From NCBI RefSeq assembly GCF_013426895.1, contig NZ_AP023174.1:1798001-1862000 (forward strand): DNA of 64,000 bases. The letters are read 5' to 3'. The stretch is from Paraburkholderia largidicola. GTDB lineage: Bacteria; Pseudomonadota; Gammaproteobacteria; Burkholderiales; Burkholderiaceae. Positions 1,665-55,312 of this stretch are shown piece after piece. The translations under genes and the position numbers were made by a program. The stretch's first letter is position 1; each line of letters opens with the position of its first letter. The notes under the pieces are model-generated. The model saw nothing but the letters and a program-made list of their open reading frames with translations, was not told the DNA's origin and made no database searches.

Positions 1665-2324
1665 GCGCTGGCATCCGCGATTTGTTAGCGTGCTTCACGC
1701 GTCGCCCCTGTGCGGGGCGGCACCTACTTTTCTTTGCCGCCGCAAAGAAAAGTAGGCAAAAGAAAGCGGCTCACACCGCCAATCCTTGTTCTTATCCACG
1801 GGCCCCCAACGTCCCCACACTTCACATGGCAACGCGCCAGTCCGCGCTCGTTGCAAACGCTTTGAATAGAAGCCTCACCCGCTTCAGACACCCGCACAAG
1901 GGCCAGCGGCACCAAATGGTTTGTGCCGCCGAGGTGGCAAACGGTGTGCAGGTTGTTGCGCCATACAGGTTAGCGCTCTTATCAGAAACACCAACCGTGC
2001 TACCCAGTCCGAAGTGATGCGTGTATGGCACGAAAGCCTGCACACAGTTTGCCACCTGGGCGGCTGTGGACTATCTGGTAGCGCGTGCTGTGACGCGGGC
2101 GCGTGAAGCGGGTGAGGCGCTCATTCAGAGCGTTGGCAACGGGCGTCGATCAGCGCGTTGCCGTGAGAAGCGTAGGACCAGTTGGGGCCCTCAGGCACGA
2201 ACAAGAACTGGCGGTGTGAGCCGCTTTCTTTTGCCTACTTTTCTTTGCGGCGGCAAAGAAAAGTAGGTGCCGCCCCGCACAGGGGCAACGCGTGAAGCAC
2301 GAAGGCAAAGCGCGGATGCCAGCG
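1665..2324. repeat. 660-bp near-palindromic repeat element, copy A
   Basis: The element fills the space between the convergent 3' ends of the parvulin gene and purL. Two 288-base arms (1665-1952 and 2037-2324) are imperfect reverse complements of each other and surround an 84-base centre (1953-2036). The outer ends begin CGCTGGCATCCGCG and end with its complement. Each arm carries a 34-base hairpin (1723-1756 and 2234-2267) with a 15-bp perfect stem reading CCTACTTTTCTTTGC, and a 28-base inner block (1925-1952 and 2037-2064) matching its partner at 26 of 28 positions. A second copy lies at 54651-55312. Short ORFs inside follow the repeat and show no coding logic, so I regard it as non-coding. 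No transposase is present. It could be a non-autonomous mobile element, a structured terminator or a chromosome-organising repeat; which of these is unknown. Confidence 0.9.
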
Positions 2325-54621: not shown

Positions 54622-54660
54622 TTTGCGCTGGTAGTTTGCGCTGGCAGTTTGCGCTGGCAT
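54622..54660. repeat. Three tandem 13-bp repeats
   Basis: TTTGCGCTGGTAG, TTTGCGCTGGCAG, TTTGCGCTGGCAT in direct tandem at 54622-54660, abutting and overlapping the left end of repeat copy B. Confidence 0.85.
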
Positions 54661-55312
54661 CCGCGTGATGTTATTGGTTTGCAAGCGTTGCCCCTGTGCG
54701 GGGCGGCACCTACTTTTCTTTGCCGCCGCAAAGAAAAGTAGGCAAAAGAAAGCGGCTCACACCGCCAATCCTTGTGTTTGCCTGAGGGCCCTCACAGGGT
54801 CTTACGCTTCACACGGCAACGCCCTGGTTCGGGTCCGTTGCCAACGTTCTCTCTGTATGCCTCACCCGCTTCGCGCGCCCGCATTACCGCATGCCGTGCC
54901 AGACAGTCCACCGCCGCCCAGGTGGCAAACTGTGTGTAGGCCCCTGGTGCTCCGCACGCCTCACTCCGGACCGATAGCGCACGCGTTCCACCCTGTAAGA
55001 GCGCCAGGCTATACGACGCGACAACCTACACACAGTTTGCCACCTGGACGGCGCAGACCGTTCGCTGCCGGTGGCCCAGGTACGGGTATTCGAAGCGGGT
55101 GAGGCGTTCATTCAAAGCGCTGGCGACAAGCACCAACCAGGGCACTGCCGTGTGAAGCGTGGGGACGTTGGGGGCCCGTGGATAAGAACAAGGATTGGCG
55201 GTGTGAGCCGCTTTCTTTTGCCTACTTTTCTTTGCGGCGGCAAAGAAAAGTAGGTGCCGCCCCGCACAGGGGCAACGCGTGAAGCACGCTAACAAAACGC
55301 GGATGCCAGCGC
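54651..55312. repeat. 662-bp near-palindromic repeat element, copy B
   Basis: Second copy of the element at 1665-2324, with arms 54651-54940 and 55025-55312 around an 84-base centre (54941-55024). The arm hairpins lie at 54709-54742 and 55221-55254. The inner 28-base block (54913-54940 and 55025-55052) matches its partner at 27 of 28 positions. The centre matches copy A when reverse-complemented, so the two elements lie in opposite orientations. It sits between the exported-protein gene start and the oxidoreductase gene end. Small ORFs inside are spurious, and no transposase is present. Confidence 0.9.

Follow-up and report, generated by a model that had tools for sequence, protein, structure and literature searches.

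A near-palindrome of 660 bases, at positions 1665–2324 of the window (the whole 64,000-nucleotide stretch of Paraburkholderia largidicola DNA analysed), is one of well over 100 copies that the Paraburkholderia genome contains. The element is non-coding and interspersed and is located mostly just downstream of stop codons. Judging from sequence comparisons, its ends are inverted copies of a structured core of ~80 nt, and the interior evolves faster. The best explanation as a whole, an interspersed repeat with structured, triple-helix-like cores that may act at RNA 3' ends, is in our estimate as probable as it is improbable.

The near-palindrome described in an earlier note on this DNA was recovered computationally at the same place. 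The inverted-repeat search found outer arms of 255 nt at 1666–1920 and 2070–2324 (81% complementary) and inner arms of 43 nt at 1925–1967 and 2022–2064 (86% complementary), and these, together with the copies elsewhere in the genome, support an element of two 288-base arms around a centre of 84 bases (1953–2036). In one common alignment register, 77.7% of the arm positions pair, so the palindrome is a near and imperfect one. The nested 34-base hairpins that had been noted (hairpin B) lie at 1723–1756 and 2234–2267, each with a perfect 15-bp stem, and the 28-base inner blocks at 1925–1952 and 2037–2064 match by eye at 26 of 28 positions. The flanking genes are convergent, as claimed. The palindrome does not fill the whole space between them, because the PPIase gene has a terminator-like site of its own at 1578–1603 and T-rich and A-rich stretches lie outside the arms. 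Taken as a whole, the interpretation in the earlier note is partly supported.

The hairpin arm word occurs eight times in the window, always exactly in a search that admitted up to two mismatches, versus 0.03 expected by shuffling, and a second copy of the element, 83% identical, is located at 54652–55312 on the minus strand. In the whole genome (9.47 Mb, five contigs), the hairpin pattern occurs 342 times with at most three mismatches. Among the 100 places listed, hairpins are mostly paired ~511 bases apart, and pairing of the 342 hairpins gives an estimate of ~165 elements. With the 660-base query, at least 40 full-length or nearly full-length copies of 82–100% identity were found when 40 of the 246 candidates were scored. 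The unit is thus a multicopy, two-arm one, as had been proposed. Among 68 distinct aligned copies, 66 are 658–664 bases long, with one of 655 and one of 628, and the median pairwise identity is 82%. Conservation across these copies is uneven, the hairpin blocks and the inner block being near-invariant and the spacers variable in sequence and constant in length. The nested hairpins are the important part of the 660-bp element.

Pairing of the long arms shows no sign of upkeep. Arms of the same copy pair at 74.08% Watson–Crick, versus 74.09 ± 0.19% for arms swapped between different copies (68 copies, 100 permutations), so the cruciform suggested earlier is unlikely, and the best 70 pairs of an all-column-pair covariation analysis over the 660 bp were local haplotype blocks with no long-range arm pair among them. 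The interiors of some other species are palindromic again despite a different sequence (by eye), as would be expected if the selected feature were a cruciform or long stem of the whole 660 bp. This reading is nevertheless highly improbable, as the arms of the 68 copies show no within-copy covariation and hairpin alleles differ between the two arms in at least three of five elements read in G309, a related genome.

Occupancy of sites differs between genomes. Among 29 relatives' loci compared at the PPIase/purL site, G309 (flank 89% identical) has the element and G310 has a hairpin nearby, at the locus end; 21 of the 29 have an intergenic stretch in which no such element was seen, and the PPIase end was not found in six. 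Related genomes thus possess this site without the element, which has accordingly been gained or lost. Along ~360 kb of synteny with G309, a sister species, five of the seven elements of the own genome are matched by one at the corresponding place, and two sites are empty there (coordinates read). These counterparts are 76–81% identical, where cross-species pairs are generally 76–82% and within-species copies 82–93% identical; two of the G309 copies are split by insertions and entered the comparison with their larger piece alone. Copies are thus more like others from their own species than like their orthologues. The opposite orientation gives the better match in three of the five counterparts, and the orientation of the centre (1953–2036) varies among copies at corresponding sites, including the G309 counterpart. 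The own genome carries 342 occurrences of one hairpin allele (at most three mismatches) and none of the other (at most two mismatches), of which G309 has 119. Within the own genome, linkage between sites falls from an r2 of 0.31 at ≤5 bp to ~0.02–0.04 beyond 80 bp, and all four combinations occur in 99–100% of the site pairs more than 80 bp apart, so the copies behave as a recombining population that exchanges short tracts.

The close relatives P. largidicola F2 and strain 22B1P are 96–99% identical to the own genome at three loci. At three sites shared with F2, the element differs by 10, 11, and 18 substitutions in ~660, with 20/2000, 15/1000, and 11/2000 in the flanks; at a fourth, the element differs by 85 and the flanks by 8/2000, because the centre has been replaced in inverted orientation. 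Only at the last two of the four sites does the element clearly differ more than its flanks. In two of the three tight change clusters (element positions 16–33 and 537–546), other own copies have the F2 letters as well; for the cluster at 174–180, none of them does. These comparisons show that sites have been gained or lost, short tracts exchanged, and centres placed in different orientations, so the family evolves in concert within a species. With more than 100 such loci, non-coding and scattered over a single bacterial genome, it is a natural case of concerted evolution. In F2 (AP028202, ~224–235 kb), an element has beside it a stretch of ~10 kb that includes large hypothetical genes and a gene annotated as IS30-like ISBlo4, an insert that is missing at its counterpart in the own genome.

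Insertions recur at the hairpins. A 1099-bp IS30-type element (99% identical copies) is located at the same hairpin B edge in three copies (L031–L033; own C1 ~488, 1375, and 2197 kb), a further copy is interrupted by an IS481-type transposase gene located at or beside the hairpin dyad (L263:1334–2611, own C1 ~1883 kb), and two G309 copies have ~1.2-kb inserts beside a hairpin. This pattern suggests a hot spot for insertions at the hairpin. In G011 (L404, C1 1170–1174 kb), inward cores 3.1 kb apart enclose genes for PAAR and a Tae4-type T6SS amidase, as if the arms can bracket cargo. The suggestion that the unit is moved in trans is possible; no mover was found, as the Y1 transposase genes do not track element number. 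Inverted hairpin pairs, an extragenic location, many copies, and two Y1_Tnp matches in the own genome (one under the family cut-off) would all agree with a REPIN/BIME-like element copied by a Y1 RAYT transposase. Y1_Tnp is, however, present in 31 of 31 same-genus genomes tested, whether elements are many or few, neither of two exact hairpin words was found in the ~3.2 kb surrounding each own Y1_Tnp gene, and the lengths are ~80 nt for the core and 660 bp for the unit, which leaves this origin very improbable. The first two of these observations leave a RAYT link unsupported.

The core itself is conserved far beyond the species. In the core alignment A2, which comprises 27 cores including Paraburkholderia, Caballeronia, Burkholderia, and Pseudoxanthomonas, 96.6% of the cells pair and seven pairs change on both sides, supporting two hairpins. 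Hairpin A, GC-rich, is located at 1701–1721 in the left core (GTCGCCCC/GGGGCGGC) and at 2269–2289 in the right core and has compensatory changes in this alignment; the 15-bp stem of hairpin B is kept through compensatory changes across genera. Four of five measures were reached by none of 500 shuffles of the 27 cores, and the fifth, the number of further pair types, by 110 of 500. At E ≤ 0.001, a covariance model of the core matches 85 of the 369 genomes examined from the class and 70 of the 398 from the phylum (both counts include the own genome, with rough E-values and strict filters), and the weak matches in family f225 may be chance. With scoring limited to 150 candidates, 13 of 14 chosen genomes match the model, the number of matches ranging from 2 to at least 150. 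A first hairpin survey had given 33 of 299, an undercount because other species carry other hairpin alleles. Among 23 loci with two full-length matches, out of 56 searched, the cores face inward in 19, at 392–721 bases start to start (read from coordinates). In several other species, among them P. tagetis and P. silviterrae, the ends are the same and the interiors are unrelated in sequence yet palindromic, and in strain C35 the interior is related too, besides the ends (by eye).

The placement of the copies is strongly biased. On chromosome 1, 25 of 48 placed copies lie between convergent genes, 23 between tandem genes, and none between divergent genes (49 tried; drawn from the hairpin list, not by similarity, with insertion-split copies left out), versus 73 convergent, 346 tandem, and 131 divergent among 550 control gaps in 1.09 Mb (divergent p = 5e-6, convergent p = 2e-9). 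The element is located 39–50 bp from 24 of 73 adjacent gene 3' ends and is oriented opposite to the genes at 17 of 23 tandem sites (p 0.03). This gene context rests on a home-made codon-score gene caller, an earlier version of which gave 26 convergent, 43 tandem, one divergent, and three unplaced of 73 in a partly similarity-chosen sample; at four F2 sites the deposited annotation shows the same neighbour type by eye. Eighteen inward core pairs have seven convergent, nine tandem, and two divergent neighbours according to a crude longest-ORF caller. On replicon 3, two of six sites are divergent, which counts against the best explanation. A recurrent module, TTTTTTTGTCTGCGACGCTGGG...TTTG with GGTTT-type simple repeats directly after the stop codon, adjoins many copies (54 flanks). 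Since many flanks at 39–50 bases read TTTTTTTGTCTGCGACGCTGGG, the real unit may extend to the stop codon. The flanks of the window copy are T-rich, without this word.

Such a location suits a double bidirectional transcription terminator, in which convergent transcripts would be stopped by GC hairpins next to T/A tracts. Of five terminator-like sites in 1500–2420, four are within the arms, two per arm and one in each direction (2.1 expected by shuffling), and the element is placed after stop codons; the T tracts are interrupted, and a simple terminator requires neither the mirror tract nor the covariation between loop and block described below. We regard termination as the whole function as possible and rather doubtful. 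The transcript barrier of the earlier note agrees with the location, and we retain it as an explanation that may rival or accompany the main one. The idea that the element replaces terminators was dropped: a home-made terminator scan between stop codon and element gave 4 of 54 versus ~1 expected, and it does not discriminate, since control 3' ends score only 0–7%.

Read inward, the core runs Y, loop, R1, linker, R2, and X', with Y pairing with R1. In the left core, the purine tract R1 (AAAGAAAA) is located at 1744–1751 and R2 (AAAAGAAA), its mirror image, at 1758–1765, both on the plus strand, with block X' (GCGGC) at 1766–1770 on the same strand; R2 corresponds to U-rich motif 1 on the outward, minus strand. 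The T run, the R1 A run, and the R2 A run are equal in length in 42 of 44 distinct cores. The mirror relation was tested on 80 distant-set cores, of which seven were unparsed. Among 51 asymmetric cores, R2 is the mirror of R1 in 47, a direct copy in none, and neither in four, and 16 of 22 symmetric cores fit while six do not; the ten of 73 parsed cores that fit neither relation count against the pattern. So does the narrow range of tracts, as one type makes up 39 of the 47 mirror cores and there are five asymmetric types in all: AAAGAAAA (39), AAAAGAAA (5), and AAAGAGAA, AAGAGAAA, and AAAAGAA (one each). In addition, a direct copy shifted by one base fits equally in four of the 47 (L352, L367, L376, L396), because the run after R2 continues with A. 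The figures of 47, 0, and 4 follow a redefinition of the tracts made after a cruder score by longest common substring, in which letters of the next block had been counted. The cruder score gave 45 mirror, five direct, and five equal among asymmetric cores and 18 equal and seven direct among symmetric ones, with 12 of 80 cores, five of them asymmetric, nearer a direct copy. A prediction that a Y/R1 of TTCTCTTT/AAAGAGAA should carry AAGAGAAA as R2, made before R2 was read and with Y and R1 of that type already known, agreed with all six such cores listed (G201, G095, G164), and the same type with AAGAGAAA recurs in another family (L368).

Two further features concern the pairing within the core. 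Block X' covaries with the loop and GC at 1739–1743, forming stem C: at least four contiguous pairs occur in 45 of 51 distinct combinations, versus 8.6 ± 2.6 (maximum 17) in 1000 shuffles, scored in any register within 7 and 9 nt. The pairing is not flush against the tract in 32 of 73 cores. Among 61 distinct hairpin B stems, there are 24 C.A/A.C pairs on the inward strand, equivalent to G.U on the outward strand, versus one T.G inward, with five other mismatches; the A2 set has four C.A/A.C versus one T.G. Eight of the 80 cores were skipped in the stem C and wobble tests. The wobbles are not independent, as the base type CTCAC/GTAAG accounts for 10 cores, and this counts against their weight. 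Covariation shows that each core is composed of a GC hairpin, the 15-bp Y:R1 hairpin, stem C, and an R2 that mirrors R1.

The mirror R2, the covariation of loop and block, and the wobbles almost confined to one strand are together what a U.A-U triple helix requires. Read outward, stem C is followed by U-rich motif 1, the linker, U-rich motif 2, stem C', and the A-rich tract, in that order. In the right core the outward strand is the plus strand, with the 5' side of stem C (GCCGC) at 2220–2224, U-rich motif 1 (TTTCTTTT) at 2225–2232 as the proposed Hoogsteen strand, U-rich motif 2 (TTTTCTTT) at 2239–2246 as the Watson–Crick partner of the A-rich tract, the 3' side of stem C (GCGGC) at 2247–2251, and the A-rich tract (AAAGAAAA) at 2255–2262. 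Mirror purine tracts with a short spacer are also the classical layout of H-DNA, and the mirror repeat of the core equally permits it. The core might accordingly act as DNA, either as H-DNA or as a single strand recognised by a transposition or recombination enzyme, with RNA irrelevant. The recombining copies and flipped centres, as well as the insertion sequences at the hairpin (IS30-type at one same spot in three copies and IS481-type in another), would agree with this. In contrast, the one-sided wobbles (24 to 1) point to a structure of one strand, H-DNA in duplex DNA needs neither a compensated hairpin nor stem C, and no enzyme was found; a role as DNA is in our view unlikely.

Under the triple-helix reading, a transcript that crosses the element would exit through an outward-read arm as 5'-stemC-UUUCUUUU-linker-UUUUCUUU-stemC'-AAAGAAAA-3'. 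In its arrangement, this arm RNA would resemble a U.A-U triple helix of the ENE/MALAT1 type that includes one C+.G-C triplet, and a GC hairpin would come after the helix. Its likely job would be that of a resistant 3' end guarding against 3' exonucleases, with or without termination, and it would serve the flanking mRNAs as well as the element's own RNA. From these patterns we infer that the core may fold as a triplex and protect or end transcripts. Energy folding of both strands, a check named in the earlier note, returned the plain 15-bp hairpin (the program is without triplets), which counts against the triplex. Moreover, the base of hairpin B is itself formed by pairing of the linker complement (CCTAC/GTAGG and compensated variants). 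By our reading of the geometry, the full hairpin and the triplex are mutually exclusive, so the element would have two states at best. A single arm located between lpdA and aceF on a B. cepacia plasmid has its outward strand opposite to these genes, which also counts against the reading. If the proposed role is correct, these elements would amount to a large class of bacterial 3'-end elements that is for the most part unannotated, and it becomes testable whether bacteria protect transcript ends by RNA triple helices, as eukaryotic lncRNAs and transposons do.

Among known systems, half of one core is already described, as the Burkholderia sRNA Bp1_684 in Rfam. At the gathering threshold, Rfam finds three tRNAs only in the window. 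In a permissive search, both arms match RF02421 (Bp1_684) on their outward strand, at 1733–1630 on the minus strand (E 1e-6) and 2257–2347 on the plus strand (E 0.0013); these matches, at 37.9 and 26.3 bits, are under the 44-bit gathering cut-off, which some other own-genome copies pass, and the family is above its cut-off in 26 of 120 genomes of the bacterial family. The available part of the source describes RF02421 as Bp1_Cand684_SIPHT, a Burkholderia sRNA of 114 nt detected by RT-PCR in B. pseudomallei beside pdhB/lpdA, with oligo(dT)-primed cDNA and a suggested trans-acting role, the RT-PCR leaving the strand unfixed (PMC3521395). On the outward strand, RF02421 spans the outer half of the core; it differs in being described as an sRNA, not as an arm of a dispersed palindrome, and leaves out most of Y, the loop, and R2. 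Single arms occur in B. cepacia and B. cenocepacia (L326, L327), with no second arm seen within ~1.5 kb, and a single arm between lpdA and aceF looks alike in several further genomes. Among the open-access titles listed, none was recognised as describing the palindromic repeat family.

REPIN/BIME elements resemble the present family as inverted hairpin pairs that are extragenic and form a copy population in one genome, but the present element is far longer, has another hairpin, shows no RAYT link in the loci compared, and undergoes short-tract recombination among copies. REP sequences are short and have a GTAG-type foot, whereas the core is ~80 nt and its GTAG is inside a stem and replaced in other genera. 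Like MITEs, the element is non-coding, has inverted termini, and is missing from some corresponding sites in relatives; unlike them, its termini are structured ~80-nt cores and the interior is itself palindromic. No target-site duplication was seen by eye at two element-less sites. The IS30- and IS481-type genes at copies are insertions into the hairpin, and no autonomous parent with the same ends was met among these insertions or between the inward cores of G011.

The closest counterpart in layout is found outside bacteria. In MALAT1, the order is stem, U-rich motif 1, linker, U-rich motif 2, stem, and A-rich tract, and the core too has two U-rich motifs, an A-rich tract, and flanking G-C pairs. 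ENE-type triple helices are described, in the accessible part of the source, from eukaryotic lncRNAs, herpesvirus PAN, and plant and fungal transposon RNAs, in repeats and at RNA 3' ends (PMC12501189). The core differs in being bacterial, in a built-in A-rich tract with a fixed G/C triplet in place of a poly(A) tail, in a triplex that is predicted, and in a sequence that also forms a perfect competing hairpin. A bacterial ENE counterpart, that is, a triple-helix RNA end on a dispersed palindrome in many families of Gammaproteobacteria (in the GTDB sense), providing 3' ends for mRNAs through a hairpin/triplex switch, is a tentative proposal that we hold somewhat short of probable. Like the ENE, the core sequences place two U-rich motifs opposite an A-rich tract so that the triplets match, and stem C corresponds to the G-C-rich stem beside the U-rich loop.
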